Shown in pieces: positions 9,247 to 31,780 of a DNA stretch of 64,000 nucleotides (its first letter is position 1; every line of letters starts with the position of its first letter). The notes below the pieces were generated by a model that was not told where the DNA came from, searched no databases, and saw nothing but the letters and a program-made list of their open reading frames with translations. The stretch lies in contig NW_024882968.1 of the NCBI RefSeq assembly GCF_019059575.1, forward strand, positions 62,001 to 126,000, in the 5' to 3' direction. A program made the translations under genes and the position numbers. The stretch is from Amphibalanus amphitrite. Its lineage: Eukaryota; Arthropoda; Thecostraca; Balanomorpha; Balanidae.

Positions 9247-9252
9247 CTGCGG

Positions 9253-11660: not shown

Positions 11661-11693
11661 AGGCCCGGGCAGCGCTTGTCGAACAGCACTGCG

Positions 11694-12390
11694 GATCCGA
11701 AGGTTGGGACTTTAATTGTGAAAAACCGCCCGCCCGCCGCAAAACGCAAACACCGCAAAACGCGCAAAACGCACGCCCAAAACGCCAACGCAAATGCCGC
11801 AAAAAAAACAAAAAATCGCCCGCCCGCCGAAAACCGCAGAAAAAAAAAACTCAAAAAACGCCGCAAAAAATCAAACCGCCCGCATCGCACGCCAAAAAAC
11901 GCCCGTCCGCCGCAAAACGCGAACACCGCAAAAAAAACGCAAACACCGCCGCCGCAAAAAAAAAACGCCCGCTGCCAACCGCAAAACGCCGCAAAAAAAC
12001 GGCCGCCGCCGGCAACCGCAAAACGCTGCAAAAAAATGGCCGCCCGCCGGCAACCGCAAAACGCTGCAAAAAACGGCCGCCCGCCGCAAACCGCAAAACG
12101 CCGCAAAAAAAACGGCCGCCCGCCAGCAACCGCAAAACGCCGCCCGCCTCAAACCGCCGCAAAAAACGGCCGCCCGCCGCAAACCGCCGCCCGCCGCCAA
12201 ACACAAACACCGCAAAAAACGGAAATACCGCCGCAAAAAAACGCCCGCCCGCCGCCAACCGCAAAACGCCGCAGAAACGGCCGCCCGCCGCGAAACGCAA
12301 ACACCACAAAAAAAAACGGAAAAACGCCCGTCCGCCACCAGACGCAAACACCGCCGCAAAAAACACACGAAGTCCGCAAAACGCAATTAC
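11694..12390. repeat. T-poor GC-rich minisatellite, copy 3
   Basis: Third minisatellite block after the conserved spacer. It carries more indels and GGCAACCGCAAAACGCTGCA variants than copies 1 and 2. Open frames (241 codons plus, 301 codons minus) are composition artefacts; the minus one runs into flanking repeat. Confidence 0.9.
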
Positions 12391-12573
12391 TGACCTATTA
12401 AGACAAATATGGCGCCGTGCGGCAAGTGTGGTGCATTCATTTCTGCCGTTTAAGCAGCCACCCTCAATCAAAGCGCTTCCTCGGATTTTCCACGAGGTTC
12501 CCCCTTCAAACACGTTTCCACGTGGCACGTGCTTTTCAATCGCCCCATATCTGACCCATACCATGTGGTAGCC
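12391..12573. repeat. Truncated CACGTG module
   Basis: Only the first ~80 bp of the module lead-in and about 100 bp from its interior (TTTTCCACGAGGTTCCCCC to CATGTGGTAGCCG) remain. An internal deletion joins them near 12478, and homology ends at 12573, where unrelated AT-rich sequence starts. Confidence 0.7.
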
Positions 12574-13276
12574 GTATAAAAATGTCTTATTGTATTGCCC
12601 GGCAACGGTCTGTCCTGGCACGTGGCATAATTTTTGAGATAGGTATATCCTGTATGCTATTTTCGTGTAGTAATGAATACAACAAACACTAAGAATAGCT
12701 TGAGATAGCGGGATACGTTTAGTGAGATGGTTGCGTGCGAAAGTTATTTTTAACAACAGTTAGCTGCTAGAAACGTGCTGGGTATCAACAATTATCAAGC
12801 GTCAAGAAGTCTCATTATAAAGCGCAATACAAGTCGTACATTTATGATCGTATGAGACGTTCTGCATTGATCTTATAACCACTTTTCAAACAGACAAAAT
12901 AGAAACTAAAAAAGTAATTATGCAGCGAACTACTATGTGAACTTCATTCGACGTCAGGCAACCATCTCTCCGGGGGCGCCACGAGGAGGCATCCCACAGT
13001 GTGGCATATCGGCAAACACAGATCTGCTGTAGCAGGTGAATATTATTTACCCTGCCGATGGCATTGGCAGCAATAGCCGATATTCCCACTGTCCGCCCCC
13101 ATAAATTTTGCCTGTGGCAATGCAAGCCACTCCATTCATTATGAATGGTTTACCTTATTGTTCAACATCAAAACTAATAATGGGTCAGCTACTCAGGACG
13201 AGTCAGCATCACCTAGCCTTACGTAACATACATTGCTTTTTTGCGAATAGTTGATGAATGCATCTATAGCTTCAAT
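12574..13276. other. No recognised feature
   Basis: AT-rich sequence. Short frames only, none with a recognisable domain, and no inverted ends noticed. Confidence 0.4.
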
Positions 13277-13280
13277 TTAA

Positions 13281-14453
13281 CCCGCGCCCCACTGGGGTCT
13301 GTGTATAACACGCCCTACTGGGGGGGGGGCTATTCATAGCCCCCCTCCTAACTCCGAAACTACTGGGCCGATCGTCAAAATTCAAACGGCGTCTGATAGC
13401 CCCGGACAAACTGTCGAGCGAAACCTAATTTCATTGACCTCGAGGTCACCGATGACGTCACAGGTCAGGTCAAAGTAAAAATTATTAGCATTTTGGCTTG
13501 TTCACATTTTGGGCTCTGGCCGCCGTCTTACAAGTCAGATCAGGCTCATTTTTGGTTTCCACACTCGTGAAGAGATGCTCTAGATACTTTGAGGGTACCA
13601 AACTTGTACTTTGATTTTCAGGTCAGGGTCAGGTCATCACAGGTCACGAAAATATTATATCATGCGTCGGTCACGTGACACATGTTTTATGGTCCATTTA
13701 GGCCATAGATTTCGAATTTGATGTCGTCTGTGTCATTCGAGGTCATTTGGAGTCGAATTTAGCTAAGGTCAGGTCACTTTCAGGTCAAAAAAGGTCAAAT
13801 TTTGAAGTTTACATTTTTCAACAAAAAAGGTGTCTAATGGATGCAGTTTGAGCTCAGGAACACGGTGGTGCCATTTATATTGGTGTACGATGTCAAATAC
13901 GTACTGAAAAATTGATTTGAAAAATAAATAATTGTGAATTTTTTGCAATAATGCGTATAACTTGGCCATTTTTGAAGATATTTAGCTAAAACTTGCTAGA
14001 GTTAGTCAACATCATGCGTTCTGTCACATATATTCCGGTTTTTTCGAAAACTCAAAAACTTTTTGAAAGAAATATAAAAATATAAATTTTGAATATTATT
14101 ATATAAAATTTTCGAAATTTTGAAAATTTTGAAAATCCGAGATTGCAGTTTGATAGCGCAGTCAATTCTGAGTCCTTTCATGCAAAGAAATTGAATCTAG
14201 CTTAAAAACTGAGCTCTTGGGAGCGATTGCCGTGGTTCAATGTTTTGCGTCGAAATCGGACGAACATGACGTCACTCTGACGTCATTTCCGGCGGACCTA
14301 TGGTAGTTACGAAGTTCAAATTTTGACACAAGGTGTCAAATTGATGCAGCCGAAGGTCCTGAAAGTTTGGCGTCGATCTGTCAAGCGGTTTGGAAGTTAT
14401 TGCAGAAAAACGGGAGGGGGGGCTATAAATAGCCCCCCCCAGTGGGGCGCGGG
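13281..14453. mobile_element. 1.17-kb TTAA-flanked AGGTCA-rich element
   Basis: Terminal inverted repeats CCCGCGCCCCACTGGGG (13281-13297) and its inverse (14437-14453) are flanked by TTAA at 13277-13280 and 14454-14457. Inside each end lies a G-run/C-run hairpin (GGGGGCTATTCATAGCCCCC near 13328 and a related one near 14414). The interior has AGGTCA clusters and an AT-rich core similar in layout to 3613-4566. No transposase frame. Probably a piggyBac-like non-autonomous element, with superfamily inferred from the TTAA alone. Confidence 0.8.
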
Positions 14454-14457
14454 TTAA

Positions 14458-15091
14458 AATTGGACGTCATTTACCCCAAGAAAAGCTTTTAAAAGAATTT
14501 TACTCAATTAGATAGTGACTACTTCAAATTTGGCGAATAGTTTGCTGAATGGATGCCAATGAGATAGGTCATTAGAACGCTTCTTTGAAGTTTCATATTT
14601 AGACATTGGAGCCACTACAAAACGGTTATATCGGGGATCAAAACCCAAACGGAGCTAGGAATCTGATGCAACTCGCTTTTGTACCTTTCTTGACGTAATT
14701 ACACTTAGTTTGCATAATACGTTCGTGGAACTGGGATAAAACTTATTATATTACTGACACGTTTATATTGGGGGATCAGAAGCCGAACGGAGATACAGCC
14801 TGATGCAGCTGATGCATTGTACGTGTCTTGACGTAGTTAGGATTAGCTTTCAAAAGAAATGGAACTGGTTTAACTGTACATTTTTGCCCAAAGTACAAGA
14901 TAGTTATTGACGTCCCAAAACCTGCCATAACCAACAAATTTAACTAAAGAAGAAATGAGGTACATGCATTCTCAAATAGACCATGCGAGCACACAAGCAA
15001 GTCATGCAAGCATGTAAGTTTTTTTATTTTTTTTTTTTAGGGTGGCATGCAAGCACGGAAAGTTTTTTTTTGTGGAAAATGGCATGTGACT
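14458..15091. other. Intergenic sequence with a degenerate duplication
   Basis: Two diverged copies of a segment of about 165-180 bp start near 14625 and 14769; compare GGGGATCAAAACCCAAACGG with GGGGGATCAGAAGCCGAACG. From 14990 a CATGCAAGCA-rich, poly-T stretch leads into the GACTCC repeats; its AAGCACGGAAAGTTTTTTTT motif recurs at about 15697. No gene seen. Confidence 0.5.
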
Positions 15092-15357
15092 CAGGGCTGC
15101 GGAGTCGATGGATTTTCGGCGACTCTGACTCCAACTCCGACTTTCAAAAACCAACTCCGACCCCGACTCCGCGCAGAAATGTCGACTCCGACCGACTCCA
15201 ACTCCCGACTCCGACTCCGCAGCACTGCCAGGACAGCGGAGTCGATTGATTTTCGGTGACTCCAACTCCGACTCCAAATCCGGTTTCCAAAATCGACTCC
15301 GACTCCGACTCGACTCCGGGCAGATCTGTCGACTCCGACTCCGACTCCGCAGCCCTG
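15092..15357. repeat. GACTCC-rich inverted-end repeat, unit 1
   Basis: Starts CAGGGCTGCGGAGTCG and ends with the exact inverse CGACTCCGCAGCCCTG. An internal junction (CCGCAGCACTGCCA then GGACAGCGGAGTCG, about 15216-15243) shows it is two monomers of about 130 bp, each bounded by inverted ends. The interior is (GACTCC)n with a GATGGATTTTCGGCGACTC motif. It looks like a MITE-derived tandem; long Ser/Arg/Glu frames on minus are artefacts. Confidence 0.8.
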
Positions 15358-15365
15358 CGAAGCAC

Positions 15366-15647
15366 CAGGGCTGCGGAGTCGATGGATTTTCGGCGACTCT
15401 GACTCCGACTCCGACTTTCAAAAACCAACTCCAACCCCGACTCCAACTCCGCGCAGAACTGTCGACTCCGACCGACTCCAACTCCCGACTCCGACTCCGC
15501 AGCACTGCCAGGACAGCGGAGTCGATTGATTTTCGCTGACTCCAACTCCGACTCCAGATCCGGTTTCCAAAATCGACTCAGACTCCGACTCGACTCAGGG
15601 CAGATCTGTCGACTCCGACCGTCTCCGACTCCGACTCCGCAGCCCTG
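15366..15647. repeat. GACTCC-rich inverted-end repeat, unit 2
   Basis: Tandem second copy of the preceding unit, separated by 8 bp, with the same terminal 16-mers and the same internal junction. Four monomers in all make up the array. Confidence 0.8.
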
Positions 15648-16544
15648 CCGGAAGCACACATGCAATCGTACAAGCAAGCACACATGCAAGACATGCAAGC
15701 ACGGAAAGTTTTTTTTGTATTTTTTTTTTTTGTTTTTAATGGAAAATGACATGCAAGCACAAATGCAATCTCTGACTCTGAGTGTTGGAATTGGAATAGA
15801 TTGCTTCATGTCGTTTCGTTTTTAGCCTACCTAAGGTTCAGTAAACCCCCTCATTGGTTAATTAAGGCGACAGGGTGGGGGATAGCAGTCTCCAGGCAGA
15901 GTTTAGTCACCTCCCCACTAACCGCCTACCTATTTCCGTTGACATGCCAGCACAAGCATCACCTGACACACTCGGCGGACCAAGCTGCTCGGCTAGCCAG
16001 CTGCATGTCACATCTAACGCACGTAGCGCCACCTAACGCATCTCCCACGCCTGGGCAAGGTTCCGTAAGCTCACACCTTGGAGACTGCTATGGGAGAAGA
16101 ACAATGAGCGGGGACAGTGCAGCCTCGAGATTTTTCACCTATGTACTTATTTTCAGGCTCTTTACATCCTCCTACCTAGGTATAATAGAATGAACGCCTA
16201 GCGACCTAGTACCACTTTTTTGACAGCTTCCTACCAGTGACGCGTATTGACCAGCTGGTGCATACACCATGAGCGTTATTAATGGCACCGGACCAGCGTA
16301 AAAATGTGCAGTTGTGCACTGCTGATGGGTGTGTTAAGGAAAGAAACTCCGGAAGCTCCTACGGTAGAAAGGGCTAAGGGCAGAAAGAAAGAAATACTGG
16401 TTGGCCTAGGCCTCCCAGACCCCGAATTCAACACCGACCTGTGTGATATTCTGCTTCCAAACACGTAACGTAACCACCTTGTGGAGCCCATTGACACGCG
16501 CGTGACATAGTGTCGGTCGTATTCTATCCGATGAAAAGATAGCA
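15648..16544. other. Flank between GACTCC repeat and Rep-helicase ORF
   Basis: Contains a 13-bp perfect inverted repeat, ATAGCAGTCTCCA at 15882-15894 and its inverse at 16079-16091, enclosing about 185 bp; this may be a small MITE or part of the Helitron 3' end. The 3' untranslated part of the Rep-helicase transcript must lie here. I could not identify a CTRR terminus with hairpin convincingly, nor a polyadenylation signal. Confidence 0.4.
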
Positions 16545-19500
16545 TTACTGTGCAGGCCTACCAGTTTTGCGACCCCGCTTGGCGGGTCGTCCGCGACTAA
16601 CTGAAGTGGACGCTGGCCTTTTAGCCCCGGTTGAAGACCGCTTACGCTTGGGAACACTCATCTCTAGCTGTCTGTGTTTGGACTGAGTCAAATAGATGGG
16701 CCTGGCGAGTATCAGGCTTTCTTCTGTAGCTAACATTTTGTTTATAACCGCTACGACTTCCACCATTTCTACATGTCTGCCGGAAGCAGCGAGACATTGC
16801 AAAACAATTTCACCTACGTCCTGAACATGATGCTGTCTCCACGCCCTGTGTACGTAATCTGCAATCAAATTTTGCTCCCGTGACCATTCAGCTCCGCCCT
16901 CTATCTCTACGTAAAGACGCCACGTTTTGGCGGCATTAATGCGCATTTGGCGCTCAAAAATTTCTGCTTCAATGACGTCATCATTAAGGCGCTGAACATT
17001 TATTTCCTGCGCGGTAGGCCATTCTGTCTCAGGAATGTACATGTGCTTTGGATGTTTAACGCGCGAAACTACGACAGTCCAAAAGCCCGGATTGCCCACC
17101 CATTCCTTTACTTTAACTTCTACCCGAGACAAAGTGGCACCCTGGCCTTTAAAGCCGGTAAACGCGCTGCCCCCCTCGAGCGGAAAACCTACGCGAAATT
17201 CAGAACAGTTAACTTCAGAAACAGCGCTGCCCTTTTTGCGAGATGCACGGCCGCGTTTCACTGCACGGATGGGAACAAGATCATCTGCGTCTTCTATGCC
17301 TAGAACGTTTTGACCACCGTTGGCGGTATAGCCAGGAACACGAACGACAATAAACTCGGGCAAATGAGGCGCACACTTTGGTGTGCGCAAAACTAGCTTA
17401 ACAGGGTCCGCGGTGGCCACTAGTTCATCCAGACAGTTACCCTCTAAATCATTGCCATTTACTTTAACGATGACGCTTCCCACCGGCACCTGATAAACGT
17501 TTTCCCTATCTGAATGGGGCGTGTCGATAGGCTCCACAAGTGTCACACCTTCAACACGTACTTTTTCCGCAAAGTCGCGACGGCTAATAGTCACGAGCAA
17601 ATCATCTTCTAGATATAGGGGACCCACAAACTCTACCTGAGACCCGTTAAATAGCCCGAAGCTGGGTGCTACATTTTCTAGCAGCATCAGCGGCAGACCC
17701 CTACACGCAAAGAGAACCGAAGGCACCGCGCGAAACTCTTTTGCCGATAATTTTTGTAATTTCTGAGCCTTCCTGGCTGGCATGTGCTGTGAATTTACGG
17801 CCATGACGTGAGCGCTCCTATCTGCAGCAAAATTAACCAGAGCACGAGCATTATCAGATTCTACTGTTGAACGGTTTGCAGCCCACTCACTAAACCAGTG
17901 ATACCCATGTAACGTTATAGCACATTTCCACGCAGGATCGGCAGACAAATCCTCAGTTGTGGCACAGTTTTCCTTGAGCCACTGAATTTTCTCCGGGGTG
18001 GCCTTACCGTATCTCATAGACGGAAGAATCTCCTTAGTAAATTTTGCGGCTACCTCGTCATTTTCAACAGTACGACGCACCTCATTTAAATAAACAGTTT
18101 CATAGTCGCCGTCGTACGCGGCGGCGCGAAAACGAGCTACTTCCGCACGTACGCGGTCACTAAGATCAGCGCGGTTTACACCTAGCGTTTTTCTCCACGT
18201 TTCATACCCTGGCAAAGTGTCAAGCGCCGGCATTCTGAAAAGTTCACGGAAAGATGCCATACCCAAAATAGAGGCCTCACAGCATGCATTACCGTCGTCC
18301 GAGCGCTGACGCAAGCTCCAAATAGGAACATCCCCGATTGGAAAAATTTGCGCTGGATCACCGACAAACAGGACACCTATGTGATCCATGTTAACACCTG
18401 CCTGACCGAGACGCTGCATTACCCAACGTATCATGCGACGCTGAATCATTGAAAATTCGTCAAAAATTATCAAACCTAGCTCAGTACTAAGGCTATCACA
18501 AAGCTGCAAAAAGCGACGGCTATCCTCGGCCAGCGGCTCGTCCCCTGTTTGGCCCACGCTGATGGCGTATAAGCGGTGAATGGTAGTGGCGCCATGCGCC
18601 ATGTGAAAAGACGCACATCCTGTCGGCGCCGACAATTTAACTACATCCGTCCACTTGGCAAAATCATCACCTAACATTTCACTGAGCTGATGCACGGCCG
18701 AACGCAAAGTAAAAGATTTGCCGGCACCGGGATCTCCTAGCAAGAACGCGCGCAGTGCCTTCGGCGGCGTTTGCCGCAAGTCTACAATATCCGGTCTGAC
18801 GGGTGGGACCTGACGCGATGAGCCCGCCAGACGCCACTGCTTAACCTGCCTATCGTATGTATCCCACTGGCGACGCGAGCAAGCAAATTCCCTCTGTTGC
18901 GTTAAATAGCGCTTTAAAACCGCCGACAGCACGCGCTGACGCCCTGAGAGGGCAGCCAGCGGTGCGTGTGCGACGTCTCCTGTACCGCTAGCGACTAGCC
19001 TACGATAATTGCGACGCACTAGGTCGGGATTAACTGGCCTGTCTCCTAGCCAGTCTGCCTGAAAATCAAAACCAGCCGGATTGGCAATGCCGGCCGCGGC
19101 CACCCCTGGTACGCAATTTGCTTCCCCATCATCCGCCGACCTATAATCTCCCCGATTACCTAGCATGGCGTCTAGAGCCGTCTGATAAAAACGATCGGGC
19201 AAACGCGTCGCATTCGCCTCCGGCTCCACTGGTTCATTTTGTTCTAAAACAACTTGATCTTCGGGATCGGGGTCGTCGCTATCCGACGACTCGGACGCAC
19301 TCGAATCGTCGTTGGCGTCAGACGGATGAAAATGATTATGATACCGCCGCACAAAAGCCGGAACGTCTAAGCCTGTTGACAGCAGACGATGGTACCTACA
19401 GATCCAATGGATGCACACCTCAGCCGGTGAAGCCTGCTGGGACGGCATTAGGTCCTCTGCAAGCAAGCAGGGTTCACACCAAAGAACAATATCGCGGGCG

Positions 19501-21857
19501 TATTTCCAGAAGCCCTGCCTGGACGGATTGGCGCTACTTTTACCGTAGTGTGGCGTCAGACGGACGCACACACGTGACCCGCAAACCTGGTGACGCCGAC
19601 GGCCAATTGTCATTACCTTTTGATCACCTATCTTTTTCTCAGAGACTACAAAAGTATCAAAAAATTGACGAACCGACATAACGCGCTGAAACTCGTCGGC
19701 AGCTATGCCGCCATGATGCACATTATCATTTAGACGCGCGTTGAAATGCTCCAGACGGCTAGCAAACACATACTCTCCGGCATCTTCCGCAGAAATTGGC
19801 CGCAGAAGGCGAGTACCACTAAAGCCGAAACCGCGCGCGCGAATATTCCTATACAGCAGAGGCAGCTGCCAATTTTTGTGCATTGCCTGAAAGATTGATT
19901 GACACCTAGCCGACGAAACTGCATTATACATTCTCATAACTACGCCAGCGTCTATATTTGCGGTGGCGCCGCGCGTCTCCAGAGCCGTAAGAAGAACATC
20001 GGCCGGAGTTCGCACGGGAGCAACTGGCTTAAAGCCGTACTTTAGCGCGTATTCTACGTTAGCATCACCTGACCCAATTGCCAACTGCATTGTGAAAGAA
20101 AAGGCTACACCATCGTCTGTAGTTACGCTTTCCCAAACGACAGACGGCGGCCGCGCCAGCCACGCCGGCACGACCGCTTTATCGTCTACGTTATTCAAAA
20201 TGTGCAAGACGGCGAATGGATCATGCCCTCCCATCCACACGTCATTGCACGCCGTTTCACACTGTTTTATACGCCTATCGTGAGAGTCTGACGCAACGAC
20301 CGATTCAGTCCGAAGACGACGAGGCATCCGCCTTTTGCACCGAACAACCTCTTTCTTCACTGGTGCCGCGTTAGGATTTACTCTACGTGCTTCCGCGGTG
20401 GCTGCCTTGTCGACTTTCAGACGTTTAACTGCACATCCGTCTTTCAGCGACGGTGCTGTACCCCTACCGCTGTGACCCGTGTGGCGAAGTGTACCGTTAA
20501 TTACGCTCACATACAGCTGGTCAATATAAGCAAAGTCACCGGAGGACATGGCCCTATCGAGCTCGGCGGCCATTCGCGCGCGACAAACGGTTGTTTTCCT
20601 ATCGTAGGCAAATTCAAATGTGCGCCGACCACCCTTAGTAAAGCCCGCGTTCCAATTTGTGTACATGTTCTCAATGCGCCTAATGTAGGACTGCTGACAA
20701 GACTGCCACGCCGCGCGCACCTGTGTCTCGACCGCGCTGCGGGACGTGTCCCGTGCCAGCGTTGGGTCCTCGTTGCGCGCCGCGCGGTCAATCCTTTCAG
20801 CCTCAATGCGAAGCTGAACCTGAAGACGATGCAAGAAAGTAGAAAACGATTCACTAATTATATTACGGTGAATGTGAGGATTGGCGTTCGCGCCCCACTC
20901 CGCACGCACAATATGGTACGTGGCGGAGTAACGCACGCGCGCCAACGCAAGGGTGTCCATTTCCCCAATGAACGCTGTGACCCACGAAACGATGCCCGGA
21001 TGCTTAAGGGTGTTGGCAAATCGAGCGTGTAAATACTGCTCGTCACTAAGTGTTTCGCTGGCGGCTGCGCCGTCAGACAGACGATGAATAGCGGGATGGT
21101 GGTTATACGGGACGGCCCTAGTTTGCCAAAGATGAACTACGAGCGGAATGTCACCAACCCGCCATGACGGCGGGTCTTCTAGATCACGAATAGCGCCTAT
21201 CATTTCGTGCTTGTGTGCACGCCAAAATGCATCCGAATCATCCAATTTTGTTTGAAAACAGAGCAGAGAGCGAGCCAGCGTGCGGCACAATTGGGGATCG
21301 TCTACTAGCTGCTGTTTTGTGGGGAGACCATCTGGAAAATCGGTCAGATTTAGAGCGACGGTGGCATCGCGATTTGAAGAGTCCCTACTCTTTTGGTTGC
21401 TTATTACAAATTGTAGCTCAATGTTACCCTCGGATTCTGGCTGCTGGGCTAGCCAGTGCAAATACGTCTGACGCCAAGTCGTTATCGGTTGGCGAATAAG
21501 AACAGGCCGCTCCTGAAACGGGTCGGCATCACCAGTTAAAAAGACGTCTGGAAAACAGAGCTGAAAATAGCCGGGCGTCCACTCCGGCAATGGATGTTCG
21601 CGGTCGGCCGGAGGCATGCTAATACGGTGCAAGGCTGTCTGTGCCAGTCCTCGCTGACGAATGTCCTCCGGCCGTTCACTTTCGGGTGCGGCAACGCCGC
21701 CTACCGCCACGCCGCTGGCTCCGCCCTCGTCATTACCAAATTCACGGCTTAGAATTTCGAGTTCCTCGCAGCACATCAGCAGAAGCGTAGAACCGCGAGG
21801 AACAGTGCCTGCCGCCTCGTCTTCGACGGACGGCGCTAACAACCAGTGACGCTCCAC
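16545..21857 (-). CDS. Helitron Rep/helicase (HUH endonuclease + Pif1-type helicase)
   Basis: Predicted rolling-circle transposase. Residues are numbered from the GTG at 21857. The Rep domain shows PHIH (residues 327-330), the HUH metal-binding motif, after a KHPGIVSW segment typical of Helitron Rep. YALKYGFK at 603-610 supplies the two catalytic tyrosines Y603 and Y607 in the YxxKYxxK pattern. The helicase has GDPGAGKS (K1047), APTGCASF, DEFSM (D1133, E1134), GDPAQIFPIGD, AFTGFKGQGATL and VVSRVKHPKHMY: Pif1/RecD-type motifs I to VI in order. An acidic Ser/Asp stretch lies before the helicase, and the C-terminus is a basic KR-rich tail, probably nuclear targeting. The frame opens at a TAA at 21894-21896 with no ATG until codon 28 (21776), so the start is uncertain; initiation at 21776, frameshift from ORF1 or splicing are all possible. 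No C-terminal endonuclease domain was seen. Confidence 0.88.
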   Translation of the reverse strand: MERHWLLAPSVEDEAAGTVPRGSTLLLMCCEELEILSREFGNDEGGASGVAVGGVAAPESERPEDIRQRGLAQTALHRISMPPADREHPLPEWTPGYFQLCFPDVFLTGDADPFQERPVLIRQPITTWRQTYLHWLAQQPESEGNIELQFVISNQKSRDSSNRDATVALNLTDFPDGLPTKQQLVDDPQLCRTLARSLLCFQTKLDDSDAFWRAHKHEMIGAIRDLEDPPSWRVGDIPLVVHLWQTRAVPYNHHPAIHRLSDGAAASETLSDEQYLHARFANTLKHPGIVSWVTAFIGEMDTLALARVRYSATYHIVRAEWGANANPHIHRNIISESFSTFLHRLQVQLRIEAERIDRAARNEDPTLARDTSRSAVETQVRAAWQSCQQSYIRRIENMYTNWNAGFTKGGRRTFEFAYDRKTTVCRARMAAELDRAMSSGDFAYIDQLYVSVINGTLRHTGHSGRGTAPSLKDGCAVKRLKVDKAATAEARRVNPNAAPVKKEVVRCKRRMPRRLRTESVVASDSHDRRIKQCETACNDVWMGGHDPFAVLHILNNVDDKAVVPAWLARPPSVVWESVTTDDGVAFSFTMQLAIGSGDANVEYALKYGFKPVAPVRTPADVLLTALETRGATANIDAGVVMRMYNAVSSARCQSIFQAMHKNWQLPLLYRNIRARGFGFSGTRLLRPISAEDAGEYVFASRLEHFNARLNDNVHHGGIAADEFQRVMSVRQFFDTFVVSEKKIGDQKVMTIGRRRHQVCGSRVCVRLTPHYGKSSANPSRQGFWKYARDIVLWCEPCLLAEDLMPSQQASPAEVCIHWICRYHRLLSTGLDVPAFVRRYHNHFHPSDANDDSSASESSDSDDPDPEDQVVLEQNEPVEPEANATRLPDRFYQTALDAMLGNRGDYRSADDGEANCVPGVAAAGIANPAGFDFQADWLGDRPVNPDLVRRNYRRLVASGTGDVAHAPLAALSGRQRVLSAVLKRYLTQQREFACSRRQWDTYDRQVKQWRLAGSSRQVPPVRPDIVDLRQTPPKALRAFLLGDPGAGKSFTLRSAVHQLSEMLGDDFAKWTDVVKLSAPTGCASFHMAHGATTIHRLYAISVGQTGDEPLAEDSRRFLQLCDSLSTELGLIIFDEFSMIQRRMIRWVMQRLGQAGVNMDHIGVLFVGDPAQIFPIGDVPIWSLRQRSDDGNACCEASILGMASFRELFRMPALDTLPGYETWRKTLGVNRADLSDRVRAEVARFRAAAYDGDYETVYLNEVRRTVENDEVAAKFTKEILPSMRYGKATPEKIQWLKENCATTEDLSADPAWKCAITLHGYHWFSEWAANRSTVESDNARALVNFAADRSAHVMAVNSQHMPARKAQKLQKLSAKEFRAVPSVLFACRGLPLMLLENVAPSFGLFNGSQVEFVGPLYLEDDLLVTISRRDFAEKVRVEGVTLVEPIDTPHSDRENVYQVPVGSVIVKVNGNDLEGNCLDELVATADPVKLVLRTPKCAPHLPEFIVVRVPGYTANGGQNVLGIEDADDLVPIRAVKRGRASRKKGSAVSEVNCSEFRVGFPLEGGSAFTGFKGQGATLSRVEVKVKEWVGNPGFWTVVVSRVKHPKHMYIPETEWPTAQEINVQRLNDDVIEAEIFERQMRINAAKTWRLYVEIEGGAEWSREQNLIADYVHRAWRQHHVQDVGEIVLQCLAASGRHVEMVEVVAVINKMLATEESLILARPIYLTQSKHRQLEMSVPKRKRSSTGAKRPASTSVSRGRPAKRGRKTGRPAQ

Positions 21858-21868
21858 CGCGCACTGAA

Positions 21869-24800
21869 CTACGTGTCGTATCGTATCGTTACGTTAACAT
21901 CGTCATCGTCGCCCGACCCGTCGTCCCGTGAGTCCCTGACAGCATTGCAAATTTCATCCCAAAGATTTTTCAAGCAAGTCTCGCTCGTGTCCGCGCCCTC
22001 ACCCCCGTGCTCCAGGGAGTAGCTGGTGCGGAGTATGTCCGCCATCGGAAAGCCCGACTCTAGCCAGTTAACAAACTGATTAAAATGTAAAACTTTATTT
22101 ACGCGCGCGTGAACCTCATCTACGTTAAGTACGCGCAGACCGTGTGGCTGGCAGGGACGGTTGCGTTCGGGAAGGCGACTCTGAAGCTCCCGCAAATTTT
22201 CATTGGAAAATGGCACCCACTGCTCGGCCACGAAGCGATAGAAGGGCCGCGTGTTTCGCGGATTGTACTTGCACGGCATTAGCCTTTCCATGAGGTGCCT
22301 AGCTTTTAGAATTGTCTCCATGTTAACCATAGCCTCGCAATGGGTGCCGTCACGCCTGTTTTGCTGAACGACAATGAACGGCAGCTGGGCAAAATCGTAC
22401 CAAGGCAGACGCGCGGCTTGGACGGGACGCTTCATGGGATAGCAAATTGATCCGTGCTTTGTGAAAGGTACGTTATTGGCCCTGGATCTGAGCACGGCAA
22501 CAGTAAGATGAACGGGGCGCAGTATCATGGTTTCCGCACGGGTCCACGAATTAACAAAGAGACGGTACTCATCATCACCATAAACGTCAGTAGACATTAA
22601 ATTTCGTGCAGAATAGGGGCAAATGTGAGTCCGGGGACCATTTAGCTCCTCAGAATCCTGACTATCGCCGGCAACGTCTGCCATATCGGCAGACGCACCG
22701 GCCTGTGAAGACGGCAGCGACTGGTCCGTGTCGGACACAAGTGGTCGCGGCACGATGTTATTTAAAGGGTCAATTTGGAATGAGGGGGAACACGTTACGC
22801 AGACGCCTAAGGCCTCGCGGTCGGTTAAAACGGTGCCGTTGGCACCGAAGAATTCCGGATCTAACCTAACCGTACACTTGTTATCTCTACGCAAAATTTC
22901 TGAATTTGACAGCGCGTCGTCTACGATTCCTCCCGGCACGAGCTGGACCATGTTACCGCGTTCCGGGACACGAACTACCCAGCCCGGATGCGGCAGCCCT
23001 GGCGTTTGTTTTTTACAAATGATACAACGAACTTGACGAAGCGAATCATACACGGCATGCAAGTCTCTGAGCACCTGCAAAGAGCCTACGGTTAACTCTA
23101 CCGACGGATCCTCGTGGTCAATGCCGTCCCCAATAGGATCGTGCCAAGCCTGACAACACTTGGCCTCGCGCGGAGTGGCCACCGTGAAGCGAGCGGCCGT
23201 GAAAGGTAAGTTCCGCATTGCCTGAAAACGTTTACGGCGCGACATTAAACCTACAGTTACTTTACCTACCGGTGAGGTCCGCGTCACGAGCGAGCCGCGG
23301 TCACGCCACACGACGGATCCCGAATCCCCGCGATGGCAGTAGGAGCCCATAATTTGATTTTCCTCCTTACAATCCCCAGAGTCCAGTACCCGCAATGTCT
23401 GCAGCCGGATGACGGCCGGCGGCAAATGGTCACCGAGCTCGCTGACTGCTAACGCTACCCATGTTGAGGGTTTCTCTTGGCGGCTGCACTGCGCAATGTC
23501 TATGGCTGTGCCGCAGGTAGTACCTACCAGACGGTCACAAGTGAACTTTATGCTTTGTTTCCCACCGGCGTAGGTGTAAGAACCTAACGGATATTTGGCG
23601 GCAGCTCTGCCGTCTATCACGCGAAGTTTATTACATTCACAGCAGCGACGAATGAAAAAGGTTGGGAATTCACGACCTACATCGTCGCTGCTGACGTCTG
23701 CGATCTGCTGAGAACCGGCGAGCGGCGGACGGTTACGACCGCCGCCCGGCGCACTAGCCTGATGTGAAGTAAATTTAAGGTCATAATCTACGCGAGCACT
23801 GTAAGCCCTATCCTCATGGCATTGGGGACCCGCAAAAGTTTCAAAGAGGTGAGTATACCGGGCATGATTTTTCCTAATTTTTTCATGAACCTGCCTGAGC
23901 AGCTGCTCAAAGTGTTGCTCGGACACTGTGTCCGTCTGAGGATTGGCCTGAAATTGCTCCCACCCGTCCCGGCCGTACATATTAGAAAATTCTTCCTGGA
24001 ATGTAGTCTTTCTATAGTACACATACCACCCCCTACCGTAATAGTGAAGCTTAAGCAAGTTGTAGGCGTCCTCCCAACGCTGTGGGCCCTTGAGTGGTTC
24101 CAGACCCTCCTCCTCTACACAGCGGGCGTGTACTGAATAGTAACGGTTAACTTCACCAAGAATTTTCATGAAAAGATACTCGCTGTCAAGGACGTCTGCC
24201 ACTGAGTGACCAGACTTCTTTGCAAAATCTTTAAACCTCAACCATGAATAAAACCTGAAGTTAAGAAAACTACCACGAGACGGGTCGCAAAAGCCCCGCC
24301 TACAAAGATTGCACCAATTAGTCCGACGCCGCTCCCCTATCTCACCGGTTAGATAGGTGATAATCACCTTCGTACTATCCCTGTATGCCCATGGACCGTT
24401 AAGGTCGGATGTTGCGCCTAAAAAATCTGTCTGAACGGATTCTATAACTATATCACTATTGCTGCGCTCTTCAAGCTCTTCGAGCATGGCGCGCGTCAAG
24501 AATGAAACTCTGTTAAAGTCTGAGGGGTTGATTGGTCTAGGTGACAAGGGATGATTTGTATCTGGTGCGCTGTGCACTGATGGTGCACTTTCCCTATCGG
24601 ACTCTACCTCGGGGGGTGCCTGGCACGCGCTGTTATTTGAACCCGTACCCTCCACGATTTTGTCTGCGGGTGTCTCCCTGGCAGCGGCCACCTCCTCATT
24701 TGAAGGAGCGCTGCCAGTCGAGGGGCGCCTAGTAAACCGCCCACGTTTACTTCCCCTTCCCCTACCACTAACATGTGGGACAGTATCATGTGAGGCCGAT

Positions 24801-25969
24801 GATTTATCAGCCGCAGACTGAATAGCTGAAACGATAATATCTAAATCATCAGGGCTTACACTACGCGGAGTAGCCCGCTTTGCTGGTTTCCTACCTCTGT
24901 TTCCCCTACCGTGACCCCGCAAAACGCCACGGGCCCTTCCCCTACCCGGGGGCCTGCCTACAGCAACTGATTCCGGCTGGATCACTACTAACCGCGGGGG
25001 GAACTTGATCTGAGCGGCGCCGTCATCTAGAATATCTACTGTAACAACACGAGATATCCCGGTTTGTTCAGCCCTCCCACCCCTGCCACGACCGCGTTTA
25101 GCCCTACCAACCTCAACCCACGGCGCATCAGCCGGCTTCTGAGCCTCGGAGCCGACAACGGTGCTAGCTTCTGGCTCTTTTGCTGTAACCAGGGGGGACT
25201 GTGCACTATGTGCAGACGGCAGTGTCGGCACTGAGCTCGACACTTGGACGTCAATTTTTTCGGGGACCTCTACAGATGTGGTGGACATTACGGGAGAAGA
25301 TACGACCGGCTCAGATGGAGCCGGGACCGCCTGATTGATGCCTACACTACCTATCACGAGATCGAACGCCTCCTTATGGGAGGCGAACGTCCTTTTCCCC
25401 CTACCCCGCATCGTTTTAACGGTCTTTGCGCGTTTGGAACGGCGCGAGGTAGACACTGGAGGGGTCTTGCCGCTTTCAGTGGAGGGTTTCTCGACCTGCG
25501 TTTCGCGGGCCGCCTGAGATGGCTGAGGGGATGGTGACATCGGCGGCACAGCATAGAGGTCATAGTGACCTCCGTCGATTACCCCCGTGTACCGCACGTG
25601 AATTTCGGGGTGGTCCGGGTTCCCATGGCGCTGCATAACCTGCCCATTGCGCCAGACAACGATCCGGCGCCTCACAACGGCAGCCGCCGCGGTCAGCTCT
25701 GGCTCGGCGCCCCACTCTGCTCTAGGCACCACCCTCCTGTTCAAGTACTCCCCAAAGTCTCCCACGATGAAGCCCTCAAAGTCGGCGCGGTTAGCCCACA
25801 TGTAAGTAACCACCATGAAACGCAACATTTCCGCGTCGATGACCCCACCTCCGACGCCGCGCGAGATAGCATGGAACATACAGTCCCCATCCATGGGCAT
25901 GTTGATGATGTTTAGGTTCTGGGGACCACTTCCCGTTTTGACTACCTCCGCATAGGTGTTGAGCGCCAT
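21869..25969 (-). CDS. Helitron-associated OTU protease / zinc-finger protein (ORF1)
   Basis: 1366 residues from ATG 25969 in a good context (GAAAATGGCG). Residues 18-140 form an OTU cysteine-protease domain: MDGDCMFHAI with Cys30, the WGAEPELTAAA motif, and GGHYDLY with His135. OTU enzymes cleave ubiquitin linkages and are found in animal Helitrons. Residues about 150-480 are low complexity with several RGRG-type blocks, likely nucleic-acid binding. Then come a WCNLCRRGFC zinc-like motif (about 550), a CW-type-finger-like region (CCECNKLRV followed by FTCDRLVGTTC, about 773-815), and YCHRGDSGSVVW with Ser883, which resembles the active-site serine of trypsin-like peptidases. Further CxxC pairs (CIIC, CVTC) follow. 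It ends at TAG 21869-21871, overlapping the Rep-helicase frame by 25 nt. The OTU call is firm; the protease and CW calls are pattern-based. Confidence 0.85.
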   Translation of the reverse strand: MALNTYAEVVKTGSGPQNLNIINMPMDGDCMFHAISRGVGGGVIDAEMLRFMVVTYMWANRADFEGFIVGDFGEYLNRRVVPRAEWGAEPELTAAAAVVRRRIVVWRNGQVMQRHGNPDHPEIHVRYTGVIDGGHYDLYAVPPMSPSPQPSQAARETQVEKPSTESGKTPPVSTSRRSKRAKTVKTMRGRGKRTFASHKEAFDLVIGSVGINQAVPAPSEPVVSSPVMSTTSVEVPEKIDVQVSSSVPTLPSAHSAQSPLVTAKEPEASTVVGSEAQKPADAPWVEVGRAKRGRGRGGRAEQTGISRVVTVDILDDGAAQIKFPPRLVVIQPESVAVGRPPGRGRARGVLRGHGRGNRGRKPAKRATPRSVSPDDLDIIVSAIQSAADKSSASHDTVPHVSGRGRGSKRGRFTRRPSTGSAPSNEEVAAARETPADKIVEGTGSNNSACQAPPEVESDRESAPSVHSAPDTNHPLSPRPINPSDFNRVSFLTRAMLEELEERSNSDIVIESVQTDFLGATSDLNGPWAYRDSTKVIITYLTGEIGERRRTNWCNLCRRGFCDPSRGSFLNFRFYSWLRFKDFAKKSGHSVADVLDSEYLFMKILGEVNRYYSVHARCVEEEGLEPLKGPQRWEDAYNLLKLHYYGRGWYVYYRKTTFQEEFSNMYGRDGWEQFQANPQTDTVSEQHFEQLLRQVHEKIRKNHARYTHLFETFAGPQCHEDRAYSARVDYDLKFTSHQASAPGGGRNRPPLAGSQQIADVSSDDVGREFPTFFIRRCCECNKLRVIDGRAAAKYPLGSYTYAGGKQSIKFTCDRLVGTTCGTAIDIAQCSRQEKPSTWVALAVSELGDHLPPAVIRLQTLRVLDSGDCKEENQIMGSYCHRGDSGSVVWRDRGSLVTRTSPVGKVTVGLMSRRKRFQAMRNLPFTAARFTVATPREAKCCQAWHDPIGDGIDHEDPSVELTVGSLQVLRDLHAVYDSLRQVRCIICKKQTPGLPHPGWVVRVPERGNMVQLVPGGIVDDALSNSEILRRDNKCTVRLDPEFFGANGTVLTDREALGVCVTCSPSFQIDPLNNIVPRPLVSDTDQSLPSSQAGASADMADVAGDSQDSEELNGPRTHICPYSARNLMSTDVYGDDEYRLFVNSWTRAETMILRPVHLTVAVLRSRANNVPFTKHGSICYPMKRPVQAARLPWYDFAQLPFIVVQQNRRDGTHCEAMVNMETILKARHLMERLMPCKYNPRNTRPFYRFVAEQWVPFSNENLRELQSRLPERNRPCQPHGLRVLNVDEVHARVNKVLHFNQFVNWLESGFPMADILRTSYSLEHGGEGADTSETCLKNLWDEICNAVRDSRDDGSGDDDDVNVTIRYDT

Positions 25970-26526
25970 TTTCTTTTCTTTTTATGGAAATACAACTAGA
26001 ACAAAAAGCCAACTGGCTAACTGATCTGCGAACAAGTGCAAATCCAAGCGAGAAAAGGTTCGAAAAAACAAGATGCGTGCAGAAAGGAACTAGAAACTGG
26101 CGCAACAGACGCAACAACAAGAGGAAGTTTGCAGAGTGGCGTCTGGTGGTCAGCCTCTCAGCACTGCTCGGCAGATAGGACAGGACAGGCCTGGAAAAGG
26201 AAACATCCCATCAGGTGTTAGGACCGCTGATAGATGCATCCTCGTGGAGTGCTATCCGTGAAAGGAGAGGTGGGGCACTTGCTGTGAGTTTTAGACACAA
26301 CTGCAAGAAGTATTAGTCGAATAGTGACCGTGTTGCGCACAAAATGCATACACAATACACATGAATAGACCTCTGTCAAGCAGCGTTATGATTTGCAGTG
26401 TCCTTGGACGGTGACGAGAACTAACTGCTAGTATGAATCAGTATGCTGACTGACAAACATTTGCTAACAAAACGAGTAATTCAGCGAGTATTACAAATCA
26501 GTGATCAGTATCAGAAAAATCTCAGA
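25970..26526. other. Upstream flank of the Helitron-like ORFs
   Basis: Should contain the promoter and 5' terminus of the element (minus orientation). I saw no clear TATA box and could not place the TC 5' end. No gene on the plus strand is supported; short frames are antisense shadows. Confidence 0.4.
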
Positions 26527-27743
26527 TACCGTAAAATGGGGTGTTAAGGGACAGTGGGGTGATAAGGGACAGTTGCGTGGGAAAAACTTTGAGTCATGTT
26601 AAGTTCCTAATTTGAGAAGGTTAAATAAAAACTTGAGTGTGGTAGTTGACACTGTTTTGTCCTTGACTATAGGACAAAATGGCAATGTTTTTCATGCAAG
26701 AGATTTGGTTCAAAAATGGTAATGAAAATAATGCTACATTTTCAAAAACTGAGACATCTCCAAAACTCTGTGTGTCCACATAAACTAGTAGGTGTACAGA
26801 TAAAATGAATGCATAGGTGTATTGTCACATGTATTGCACATGTTTCCGGAAAAACTTATACAAATCCACCCATTCATTCATCATCCTCTTCCTCTTTTCC
26901 GGACACATGCATATTTTGAGGTGGATGTGGGGTGCTAAGGGACAGGGAAGAAAAAATAAAAAAATAATATCTAAATATAATTTCATAAAGTTTCCTTACA
27001 GTAGGCATGGAAAACACCAAATTCCGCATAAAATGCTGGCAAGTTCATGCTTTCATCTCTAACACATCTTAAGTTATATGTATAACAAAACACCTCAAAA
27101 CTCCCTTAACACTCTCTTTTACAATGATGGGTCAATGAAGACTGATGTAGGTAAATGTGATGTCATCATACAAATGCCCAAACAAAGACTAGGGCAACAT
27201 AGTGACAAGTGACTAGCTTCAAAATGGGTTTTTGTTGATGACAGAAGAGTACTTTTTGGTTTTGTTTACCTTATAATTAGCACATTTTCCAGAAGCGTAA
27301 ACTGAATTACATGTAATTGGCTGAAAAGGCCATTAGTGGTGAATGAACCTGACTTGTTTTATGACAGAATATGCAAAACATTTCAATGAATAGATTTTGT
27401 GCCCATTCACACCCCAATTGTAGGAATTTGATGACCATTTTTTGGAATATGACATAAAATTGCTTTATCCATTTTCAAACGTTTCGATTGATCCTGAAAC
27501 CATCACGAGAACATTTCTTGGAATAATATAGGTGTCACCCCACATTGGGGTGCTAAGGGACAGTAATGAAAAATAAGAAAAAATAATATGCATGTATATA
27601 TTTTTAAAACTTTAAAGTAGCAGGCATGTAAAGCACCAAATTCAACATAAAATGCTGACAAGTTGATGCTTCTATCCCCAACCCTTCTGGAGTTATATAA
27701 CAAAACACCTCAAAACTGTCCCTTAACACCCCATTTTACGGTA
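26527..27743. mobile_element. 1.2-kb TIR element with TA ends (AAAATGGGGTG family)
   Basis: Perfect 29-bp inverted repeats at 26527-26555 and 27715-27743 (TACCGTAAAATGGGGTG...). If the outermost TA is the target duplication, the element is 26529-27741, typical of Tc1/mariner-like insertions. The motif GGGGTGNTAAGGGACAG recurs inside near 26557, 26930 and 27547. AT-rich interior with no transposase. Confidence 0.85.
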
Positions 27744-28359
27744 ATAGGGGAACAGTTCAAGTCTGCACAATCTGACAAGTTTTTGGTGATTTCCACCTCT
27801 GCACCCTTAAAAAAAAACTGAAGGAAATTCACAAAACAAAAACATGAACATAAGAGAACACATTCTTTAAAGCTTGAAAAGTGAGAGCACACATCAATAC
27901 TTATGATACTTTTCACACAAAACATTTATAAGCTGCACCCAACCACACATCAAGTCAGGTAAGGTTATGTTATGTTAGGTAAGGTTAGGTCAGGTTAGAT
28001 TAGATTTTGTATTTTCTGCTTGTAGGTACCTAGTGTATCTGATTTAGTTAGCAATAAAAACTGCATGAAGTTTTCTGGGTTGAAATATCATGCATTGTTA
28101 CAATATGGTATGGGTTTTACTTAATTTTGAGCCTAGGGTGCAAAAGTGCAATTTCACCACTACCTTGTTGTGCTTTGCGTCAAAACTTTGTTACTTTTGC
28201 AGCAGCAGAAATAAGGTATACACAATGCAAATTTACCATTAGTTATTATAGGTAGGACTACTTAAGAAGGGTCTTAAGCAATATTCATGTTAACTGTTAA
28301 CATCTCTAAAAGACAGTATCAGTAGGGCAGACATAGCATGAGGTTCCATATCTGCGAGA
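27744..28359. other. AT-rich intergenic sequence
   Basis: Contains a short imperfect run of GGTTAGGT-like units (about 27955-28010). It resembles arthropod telomere repeats only loosely and is too irregular to call telomeric. Nothing else recognised. Confidence 0.5.
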
Positions 28360-28745
28360 ATGCATCTTTGTAACCAAGCCAAAATAAAACATACATAACC
28401 TGACCTACAACCTACAGCCTACTTTCTACAACCTAAAACCTATGGCATTAGTAGAGCAGACATCATACAAAAGGCTATGTATCTGCGATAATGCATCTTT
28501 CTAACCAAGCCAAAATAAAACATACCTACATAACCTGACCTACAACCTACAGCCTACTTTCTACAACCTTAAACCTATGGCATTAGTAGAGCAGACATCA
28601 TACAAAAGGCTATGTATCTGCGAAGATGCATCTTTCTAACCAAGCCAAAATAAAACATACATAACCTGACCTACAACCTACAGCCTACTTTCTACAACCT
28701 AAAACCTATGGCATTAGTAGAGCAGACATCATACAAAAGGCTATG
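28360..28745. repeat. About 131-bp tandem repeat, three copies
   Basis: Copies are anchored by AAAATAAAACATAC at 28381, 28512 and 28647, so periods are 131 and 135 bp; the difference is a 4-bp insertion in copy 2. Each contains ACCTGACCTACAACCTACAG and GCATTAGTAGAGCAGACATC. Copies are nearly identical, so expansion is recent. Noncoding. Confidence 0.9.
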
Positions 28746-30011
28746 AAAAGCTATTTAACAAATTTCAGCATATAGACCAGTCTGTAACAGTCGTCAGTCA
28801 GGCAGGCGTAGCACGAGCTGCCATATGCGATACCATGGATTAGGAATAGGTACTTCATCTATGGCGAGTGGCGACACCATAGGTTGAAGGTTGTAGGTCA
28901 GCGTAAGCTTTGGTTAATTTGTTATGGTTTGGTTAGAAAGACATTCCTGCACATGTGGCAGCTTGTGCTACGTCTAACCTAGCAATACCCACAAGTCGGT
29001 TGCAGAAACAAGTGTGACGCCTGCTTTACTACAACCGTGCCGTCTGCATTAGTAACCTACTGCTACCTACCAAAAAGACTGGAGTCTAGCACTTTCATCA
29101 CCTACTATAACAATACTTGCCCTAAATGCTTTACAAAAACTGACTACTGAGGCTAGCAATCTTTCACAAACATGGCAGCACCTGAGACACCTGCTTTAGG
29201 GATACCTATTACCTACCTACCTTAAATGCTTTATCTCAGCATTTTACATCAACATCCAGCATATAGTTCAACAAACCGGGTTGTGGTATTAACTAGATTA
29301 TTTGCCAGCTTGCGCCGTACAATGGCACTAGCAGAACTTGTTGCATATCAATGCTAGATACCTATGAAAGAATAAATATCCACCTAACAATTTCAGTTTT
29401 TAAGCCATTTTTAATGTTTATGTCCATCATACCTTGCTACATTGCACGTCGCCAGCTGGCTAGCCAGCTCACGCAATCCATATATTACCAAAGCCCAACG
29501 AACCAGGAAAATGTTTCAGTTTTAATACACCTAGCAACACCTGTGACAATCTCAGCATTTTACATCACCATCCAGCACGTACCTAGTAGTCCAACAAAAA
29601 AGGAAAAATAAGTGCTTCCATTTTAAACACGTTAGATGCGTCGCAATTGCCGCATCATAACCTTTTAGCCTGAAATAGCCTCAGCTTTGGAAAAAAAGCG
29701 GCAAACAACATTATCCATGTTATGCGCAACCAATTCAAGAAATCCTGGCGGTAAAGATAAACTGCATAGTAGCAAATTTCCACTTAAATAACTATCCGGA
29801 AAAAGCGTCGACCACCTACCTTCGAGCTCAAGCCAAAGCAGACCGTTGGCCGTTAGAATTGGCGGGAAAGTTGATATTCAAATTTTTGGTAGCAAAAAAG
29901 ACCGTCAGAGCCTTATTTACTTGTGCATATTCTTTAAATTTTTTTTTTTTGGAATATTCAAGGCAAAAAAGCATGAAACACCTGTCAGATTTTAAAAAAA
30001 TCTACAAATCC
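28746..30011. other. Intergenic sequence, no feature supported
   Basis: AT-rich DNA with scattered CCTACCTA and GCAGACNTAGCA motifs, the latter distantly like the preceding tandem unit. Short frames without domains. No TIR pair found. Confidence 0.4.
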
Positions 30012-30240
30012 CTTAAATTAGGTTATTATTTAAGTCCTTGATGAAATTACATGAGCTGCAACCTGGCGCGTACGTTACAATAATGAACCATTGTAAACAT
30101 TTTGACGGGTGCATATTTTTTAATCCCCCTACAAAATGACAAACAAGTTCTCTGCTGGGCCACTCATCGGGCGAGTGTCTAAAAAGCAGACGAGATAAGC
30201 AAACATGACAATGCTCCGAAACTACTGAACCGATGTCAAT
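30012..30240. repeat. Dispersed repeat, copy 1 (partner at 36648-36850)
   Basis: Diverged copy of 36648-36850 in the same orientation. Shared features include GTTATTATTTAAGTC, GAGCTRCAACYTGGCGC, TTTGTAAAC and GGGCGAGT. The two copies bracket the duplicated block and array C. Confidence 0.65.
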
Positions 30241-30483
30241 GACACCTTCACCATTCGACGCCACGTGCTCTGAAACAACGCCCATATTGATGACATGGAC
30301 GTGCATGGACGTAGCTAAGGGGGGGGGGGGGCAGTGGCGGCGGAAGGTAATTTTGGATGGGTGGCAAAGTTTTCTCAAGGGGCCCCTCTGTAAGTTTGGG
30401 CCCCCTTTCATTTTTTAGTGATATTGTATCGAGCCCCACGAGGCGGCGTTCGAAAGGTCTCTACGAGACCTTCCCAAAGCACT
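30241..30483. other. G-run bearing spacer
   Basis: A run of 14 Gs (30319-30332) and the GGGGCCCCTCTG / GGGCCCCCTTTC motifs. No gene or inverted ends recognised. Confidence 0.35.
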
Positions 30484-31448
30484 CTTAAGATTTTACAACT
30501 TTCGGGTCAAGATTAGGTCAAAGGTCAAATTCTGGGGTTTTGCATGATTAGGCTTACGGACAGTGGAATCGATAGCTGCTGCTCGAAACTCACCAACAAT
30601 GACCTCAAAGACCTAGTGAAGGCCCCATGTGCGTATAGAGGTCATACTAAGCACGGGTCAAGGTCAGGTCAGGTCACGAAAGGTCACGGTTTTCACTTTC
30701 TGCTACATGGGCGTGCGACACATGTTTTACGGCTTATTTTTCACGCCGAATCCGATGGTAATGGTTATATGTGACCCCAAGTCACTGTGCTGGTGAAAAG
30801 TGTACATTGAAAGCATAAAAATCGTTTATACCATGCATAACTAAACGAGGGCTAAGGAAAAAGTCAATTTTTCAACTTTTTATTTTTGACATAAACAATG
30901 TATTTTTCTAGACGAGCTTTGTCCCAGAAATCATGTGGTGCCATTTGTTTTCACATGCGATGTTAAGAAGTGCCTTTAATTCCCGAAAATGCTTATGACG
31001 TCACCATTCCTACCATGTTGCAGCTATTTTTTACAATTTGGGGTCAAAAATCAAGATAGAAAGTTGAAATTTGGAACATCTAATGTTCTAATAGAGCTCT
31101 ATAACATATATTCCGTTTTTTTGGAAATTCTCAAAATTTTTGATTTTATTAGCTGTTTTCCAAAAATTAAAGTTTTTTGGAATTTTTAGGGGTGAAAAAC
31201 GCATGCATCTATTCATGTCCCTAATTTGCAATTTGATTAAAACCTTGATTTTTGGCTATTTTTAAACATTTACCACCTTTTGACTGGAAACGCCATGTAG
31301 TTACATCGCTAAAATCGATATATCTAAAAAGTTTTAGAAAAAAATCTTAACAATTACACAGGAGACGTCAACTTGATGGAGGAGAACGTATGCCAAGTTT
31401 CAGGTTGATAGTGTAAGCGGTTCATGAGTTATTCAAGAAAAACGGAGG
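30484..31448. mobile_element. AGGTCA-rich TTAA-bounded element, copy 2
   Basis: Matches 3613-4520 in the same orientation, beginning at the same TTAAGATTTTA border. It has an extra segment near 30720-30850 and small deletions elsewhere. It is cut at its right G-run, where it meets the 21-bp minisatellite, so the right terminus is missing. Confidence 0.6.
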
Positions 31449-31780
31449 GGGGGTTCAAAGGGCCCGAAGATCCGAGGGCCCTTTGAGGCCTTCTGTGGGC
31501 CCTTTGAGGCCTTCTGAGAGCCATTTAATGCCAGGCGAGAGCCCTTTGAGGTCCTCTGAGGGCCGTTTGACGTCAGCTGAGGGTGCTTTGGCCCTAGCTG
31601 ATGGCCCTTTGAGGCCTTCTGACCGCCATTTGACGCCAGCTGAGGGCCATTTGGTGTCAGCTGAGGGTCCTCTGACACCTGCTGGGGGCCCTCTGACACC
31701 AACTAAGAGTCCTTTGAGGCCTTCGTGGGGCCGTTTGACGTCAGTTGAGAGCCCTTTGCGGCCTGCTGAGGGCTCTTTGA
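31449..31780. repeat. 21-bp GGGCCCTTTGAGG minisatellite, uninterrupted copy
   Basis: Continuous version of the tract split at 5335/6203. It contains one more complete GCCCTTTGAGGCCTTCTG unit at its left end. It serves as the empty site for the TTAA element in the other copy. Confidence 0.85.

Follow-up and report, generated by a model that had tools for sequence, protein, structure and literature searches.

Three groups of rolling-circle transposons provide the closest comparisons for the element described here. Canonical Helitrons, represented by Helraiser, encode an HUH motif, two tyrosines and a superfamily 1/Pif1-type helicase and form head-to-tail junctions (PMC4778049, PMC5876387). Helitron2 elements carry asymmetric terminal inverted repeats of 8 to 15 bp, the 5′ repeat lying inside a 5′ hairpin and the 3′ repeat preceding a terminal hairpin, at a distance of 20 to 30 nt from the 3′ end (Bao and Jurka 2013, PMC3627910); they encode a RepHel protein without an endonuclease (PMC4067079) and insert between TTTT and T or C (PMC5148889). 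Helentrons and HINE/DINE-1 elements are known for OTU, subterminal repeats, nonautonomous derivatives with the same ends and a TT target (PMC4067079). We analyzed a 64,000-nt stretch of the Amphibalanus amphitrite genome (contig NW_024882968.1, positions 62,001 to 126,000), hereafter the window, with positions counted from its first letter. Its sequence features make it very probable that a giant rolling-circle transposon of Helitron2-like type has a copy in the window; in this family an OTU domain is fused to RepHel and an endonuclease is apparently lacking.

The coding region consists of two minus-strand frames in different phases, which run from stop to stop at 21869-25981 (1,370 amino acids, aa) and 16545-21893 (1,782 aa) and overlap by 25 nt. 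It contains the following open reading frames (ORFs), domains and motifs.

21872..25969, minus strand: ORF1 (1,366 aa), with an OTU domain, then a variable linker, then a Cys-containing conserved part
25583..25894, minus strand: OTU-like cysteine protease domain, ORF1 aa 26-129 (Pfam PF02338, E 1.3e-11; PDB match to OTUD5, E 7.7e-4)
16548..21890, minus strand: ORF2 (protein p2; 1,781 aa), HUH Rep plus Pif1-type helicase
20868..20876, minus strand: HUH motif HIH, p2 aa 339-341
20028..20051, minus strand: YALKYGFK, p2 aa 614-621, with paired tyrosines Y614 and Y618
18333..18749, minus strand: Pif1/AAA helicase core by Pfam (PF13245, E 3.1e-10; PF05970, E 4.7e-6)

The helicase of p2 has both Walker A and Walker B motifs, and its motif sequences include the Walker A GDPGAGKS from aa 1052 and FDEFSM from aa 1143. 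An HUH motif, paired tyrosines and a Pif1-type helicase are the hallmark of the Helitron superfamily, and motifs and Pfam matches place all three here, within one frame in the open copies described below. The initial annotation, made from the letters alone, had reported long minus-strand frames with OTU, HUH, YxxKYxxK and a Pif1-type helicase; frames, Pfam and motif positions bear this out, and its Helitron-like assignment is supported by the motifs, near-identical copies and termini. The long HUH-tyrosine spacing, which it had put at about 275 residues and from which it had suggested a possibly divergent clade, measures 273 in p2 (H341 to Y614), compared with 132 in Helraiser (H595 to Y727; PMC4778049).

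A protein search of the genome (807.6 Mb in 2,644 contigs, with the window inside contig C1471) gave 180 candidates, of which 70 matches were scored: 37 close copies, window included, five of them matching only part of the query, and 33 copies of a second family, whose Rep is 64-65% identical. Of the 37 close copies, 21 are open over at least 3,100 aa; this is the commonest state among the 36 outside the window, whereas the longest frame of the window copy is 1,782 aa. The single frame of the open close copies spans approximately 3,140 aa or more. In the second family, 22 of the 33 scored copies are open over at least 3,100 aa, and one copy read whole has one uninterrupted frame of 3,169 aa, in which OTU leads and the helicase comes last. 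The second family is 60% identical to p2, and the HUH and tyrosine motifs both align without loss; in the single second-family protein aligned with ORF1, its Cys-containing conserved part runs on into Rep. A serine-protease reading of GDSGS at ORF1 aa 881-885 was dropped, as the residues at that place are GDDRA in the only second-family protein read.

The coding core, to which the initial annotation had confined the element (16545-25969), is part of a 22.4-kb unit, whose features are as follows.

11661..34079, minus strand: whole element, 22,419 bp, with its 5′ end at 34079, its 3′ end at 11661 and terminal sequences at both ends
34061..34079, minus strand: 5′ asymmetric terminal inverted repeat, 19 bp
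34002..34073, minus strand: 5′ hairpin (nucleotides 7-78) holding most of the 5′ terminal repeat; z-score -7.5, 0 of 200 shuffles as stable
26307..34079, minus strand: 5′ leader, 7.8 kb, with TTGCAG at its inner edge resembling a 3′ splice site
11695..11713, minus strand: 3′ asymmetric terminal inverted repeat, 34 nt from the 3′ end
11661..11694, minus strand: 3′ terminus, with a weak hairpin, ending in GGGCCT
13280..14454: later insertion of 1.17 kb within the element; TTAA borders its inverted ends, and none of the 19 flanks compared carries it at exactly this position

Position 34079 is the first 5′ end encountered upstream of the gene, and 11661 is the 3′ end of the same copy. Contig C431 has this pair of ends, separated by 21.8 kb, on either side of another copy (8229-30010), read only in pieces. 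The 5′ end has the sequence ATCCGAAGGTTGGGACTTT, the inverted copy of which sits 34 nt from the 3′ end; a 20-mer on the 5′ end finds 12 matches in the window with up to three mismatches, against 0.02 expected. Over three 5′ ends folded, the hairpin scored between z -6.7 and -7.5. Two end features of Helitron2 are present, namely asymmetric terminal inverted repeats of which the 5′ one lies 0-2 bp from the end, and a 5′ hairpin that includes most of the 5′ repeat; a hairpin downstream of the 3′ repeat is in the right place for Helitron2 but weak (PMC3627910). Canonical Helitron1 ends (5′ TC, 3′ CTRR, no terminal inverted repeats) were not found, the element having a GGGCCT 3′ end and 19-bp inverted repeats, and the lack of CTRR together with the inverted repeats and the 5′ hairpin likewise sets it apart from Helraiser (PMC4778049, PMC5876387). 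The 5′ end ATCC can be read as A/TCC, the slash marking the element boundary.

Sequences to the left of other copies locate the 3′ end. In all 19 left flanks returned of 20, similarity runs on past the ORFs, and a candidate element end between the ORFs and 11.7 kb was dropped, since every flank continues through it. The 3′ terminal sequence AGGCCCGGGCAGCGCT (plus strand) is found in 29 exact copies in 17 of the 19 flanks. Nineteen of these termini adjoin another unit's 5′ end, two adjoin another unit's inverted repeat, and eight adjoin outside sequences that all differ; the base beside the terminus is T in seven of these eight. The outside-flanked 3′ end belongs to the large element itself in flanks L012, L018 and L020, and some others are those of a derivative lying ahead of it. 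At the opposite end, A is the base just outside both 2728 and 45327. The genome search that the initial annotation had proposed for near-identical copies and ends found both, and the element is neither a lone copy nor one without recognizable termini. In two flanks, L013 (C1930) and L016 (C590), the full 3′ terminus is accompanied, in the same form, by an adjacent 54-nt partial repeat of itself; a small self-insertion or a replication slip is possible.

Upstream of the gene, two types of sequence are found. Similarity between the window type and the second type stops at 26307 in five flanks (L034, L035, L037-L039). The window type has TTGCAG at this boundary, and so does L038, the only second-type flank with letters inspected there; in L040 the break is slightly further in and lacks TTGCAG. 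Judged from this boundary, the leader may be spliced. Position 26307 itself was rejected as a 5′ end: it is the break between the two upstream types, and the C431 pieces reach an end of the 34079 type. Several smaller features lie within the element. At 26527-27743 the leader contains an element of 1.2 kb whose 29-bp terminal inverted repeats (TACCGTAAAATGGGGTGTTAAGGGACAGT) are perfect, and 21-bp tandem repeats (e.g., GAGGGCCCTTTGAGGCCTGCT) lie in the 5′ leaders of two copies (31474-31780 and 5053-5337). In the 3′ part, a CGACTCC-rich 143/280-bp tandem repeat (15092-15650) recurs in 18 of the 19 left flanks, and pieces related to the 13280-14454 insertion occur elsewhere in four flanks (C194c, C412, C1178 and C1476).

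The element is surrounded by derivatives and fragments that share its sequences.

302..2728, minus strand: nonautonomous derivative made of the element's last 0.8 kb and first 1.5 kb
3633..8702, minus strand: partial copy with much of the 5′ leader of a second large element
8703..9240, minus strand: 538-bp fragment of the element's 5′ end
9241..11660, minus strand: nonautonomous derivative abutting the element's 3′ end, without the last 22 nt
34080..36516, minus strand: nonautonomous derivative abutting the element's 5′ end
42119..45327, minus strand: rearranged derivative, 3′ terminus missing, 5′ end intact

The units 302-2728, 9241-11660 and 34080-36516 are all of approximately 2.4 kb and join the same last 0.8 kb and first 1.5 kb; one deletion join (12481/32557) is common to these three and to 42119-45327. 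Units touch directly, head to tail, at 301/302, 9240/9241, 11660/11661 and 34079/34080, and such junctions are known in Helitrons (PMC5876387). The 2.4-kb units contain G+C-rich minisatellites; oyster Helentron derivatives with satellite-like repeats have been reported (PMC7492417).

Arrays of this kind raise the possibility of a macrosatellite, that is, a Helitron-derived gene that unequal crossing-over and gene conversion have multiplied along with the DNA around it, after transposition had ended. A genome search with a 1-kb probe (40 copies scored of 57 candidates) found a single orientation in all seven contigs with at least two scored copies (16 copies, 21 to 54 kb apart), and clustering of this kind would fit a macrosatellite, as would the conservation of all 19 left flanks beyond the ORFs. 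So would the mosaic of identity along the unit: between the window and the copy in C1981, 500-bp bins over 16500-21999 are at least 99.6% identical in nine of 11 and 97.8% and 99.0% identical in the remaining two, identity falls to 79% in the linker (24500-24999), and it is 99.4% at 25500-25999. This unevenness makes exchange between copies likely. The conserved flank, however, stops at one exact sequence beside eight different outside sequences, several copies lie deep within contigs of 365-919 kb, and the derivatives at 302-2728 and 34080-36516 retain both ends, the latter with one changed 5′ base. We consider a macrosatellite unlikely. A Helitron2-like transposon remains our preferred reading, with the qualification that part of its spread, to judge from the identity pattern, may be due to unequal exchange and gene conversion. 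With the 1-kb probe, 17 of the 40 scored copies, window included, were at a printed 100% identity; the close copies are, on this sequence evidence, young or homogenized, and the family recently amplified or homogenized.

A slightly poorer prospect is that the element is a true Helentron whose apurinic/apyrimidinic (AP) endonuclease was missed or acts in trans. OTU does occur in Helentrons, often alongside the endonuclease (PMC4067079, PMC5148889), and the subterminal repeats and the derivatives with the same ends are similar (PMC4067079). No Pfam match to an AP endonuclease was found, however, in the window proteins, the 3,169-aa second-family protein or eight flank ORFs (flank frames scanned in part), and the 122-aa tail that follows the helicase region would be too short to hold one. 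The target differs as well: the outside bases here read T/A, compared with the TT target of Helentrons (PMC4067079). An endonuclease-less RepHel is instead a feature of Helitron2 (PMC4067079), from which the present element departs in its 19-bp repeats and the 34-nt distance of the 3′ repeat from the end (PMC3627910), in its T/A surroundings (PMC5148889), in its size of 22 kb with a 7.8-kb leader, and in the fusion of OTU to RepHel.

The division of the coding region into two ORFs was examined by comparing its junction with 20 other places fetched from the genome, 18 of which were alignable.

21885..21889, minus strand: 5-bp tandem duplication that splits the single frame, absent from 18 of 18 alignable other copies

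Among the 18 junctions, L045 differs otherwise near the duplication site and L042 has many single-base gaps, both without the duplication. The OTU ORF is separate in the window copy because this duplication shifts the frame; the separate OTU ORF described in the initial annotation is, as far as examined, a peculiarity of this copy, caused by mutation or assembly error. The description of an intact, potentially autonomous element fails for the window copy because its frame is split, and this copy is probably not autonomous; it suits many other copies, which are open, but not every one, as the C1981 copy is broken in the linker. That the split is functional, by frameshifting, splicing or reinitiation rather than through damage, as the 25-nt overlap and the length of both frames might suggest, is very improbable given that all 18 alignable copies lack the duplication, that 21 of the 36 other close copies have one long frame and that an assembly error could also account for it.

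The ratio of nonsynonymous to synonymous differences per site (pN/pS) between the window and the C1981 copy, both now frame-broken, is 0.18 for aa 491-1364 of ORF1 and 0.57 for the linker. Comparison of the two families, in which synonymous sites are saturated, gives 0.32 over p2 and 0.53 in OTU. These ratios indicate that the protein has been kept under purifying selection, least clearly in the linker and OTU.

Several observations weigh against the assignment to a Helitron2-like transposon. The 3′ hairpin, located between the repeat and the terminus, is weak: its z-score is -1.0, and 26 of 200 shuffles were as stable. The 34-nt distance of the 3′ repeat from the end is slightly beyond the 20-30 nt of Helitron2. 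The exact 3′ terminus is absent from two of the 19 left flanks (L024 and L027), and in the unit ending at 36516 the last 5′ base is changed and is followed by C. Insertion is deduced from exact ends only. The Pfam PIF1 match falls below its cutoff in the second family. The Pfam profile Helitron_like_N (PF14214) matched neither segments of the window proteins at E up to 10, a range in which HMMER filters drop most weak matches, nor the second-family protein at E up to 1; the profile covers one region and is not a requirement. A single-sequence AlphaFold model of Rep was useless, with a predicted local distance difference test score (pLDDT) of 37.6, and PDB sequence searches with Rep, which matched no Helitron chain, and with the end of ORF1 were both unproductive.

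If the assignment is correct, transposition may proceed as follows. The approximately 3,140-aa protein of the single-frame copies would combine an OTU protease, the Cys-containing region, the HUH Rep and the Pif1-type helicase. A tyrosine of YxxKYxxK would nick one strand at the 5′ end, the protein would unwind the DNA while the host copies the strand, in the direction this scheme implies, and the process would stop at the 3′ end, the site of the 3′ inverted repeat and hairpin. Circles joined end to end (GGGCCT joined to ATCCGAAGG) or concatemers could then reinsert, yielding the head-to-tail arrays and the 2.4-kb derivatives. By removing ubiquitin, the OTU part may shield the transposase or the complex it forms; activity has been demonstrated for Helitron-borne deubiquitinases from a different class (VTD), and at the time of that report those of the OTU class had still to be assayed (PMC9741609).

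Elsewhere in the window, a tandem satellite with 62/71/132/203-bp units occupies 62112-64000 and reaches the window end. None of seven other ORFs reached the Pfam cutoff with any match, no Rfam family matched at gathering score and no tRNA was found. Of two pattern scans of viral contigs, one gave no match and the other 29 matches, none a relative, and one scan of genome contigs gave 150 matches, again without a relative.

In the literature searched, no Helitron2 of comparable size with an OTU-RepHel and no endonuclease was described, although this does not prove that none exists. We tentatively suggest, as one possibility that falls short of the assignment itself in likelihood, that these elements form a separate giant Helitron2-like lineage. 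Its OTU-RepHel of approximately 3.15 thousand aa would lack an endonuclease, its 7.8-kb leader would be spliced, and its near-identical single-frame copies, numbering in the tens, would remain mobile and generate head-to-tail arrays of their own. The 9.4-kb coding core makes up under half of the element, and annotation based on ORFs would miss the remainder. Helraiser, the Helitron used for studies of mechanism, is a reconstruction (PMC4778049). With natural single-frame copies, exact Helitron2-type ends and arrays of joined ends, the barnacle family would make the end rules of Helitron2, the formation of concatemers and the purpose of OTU testable on natural sequence.

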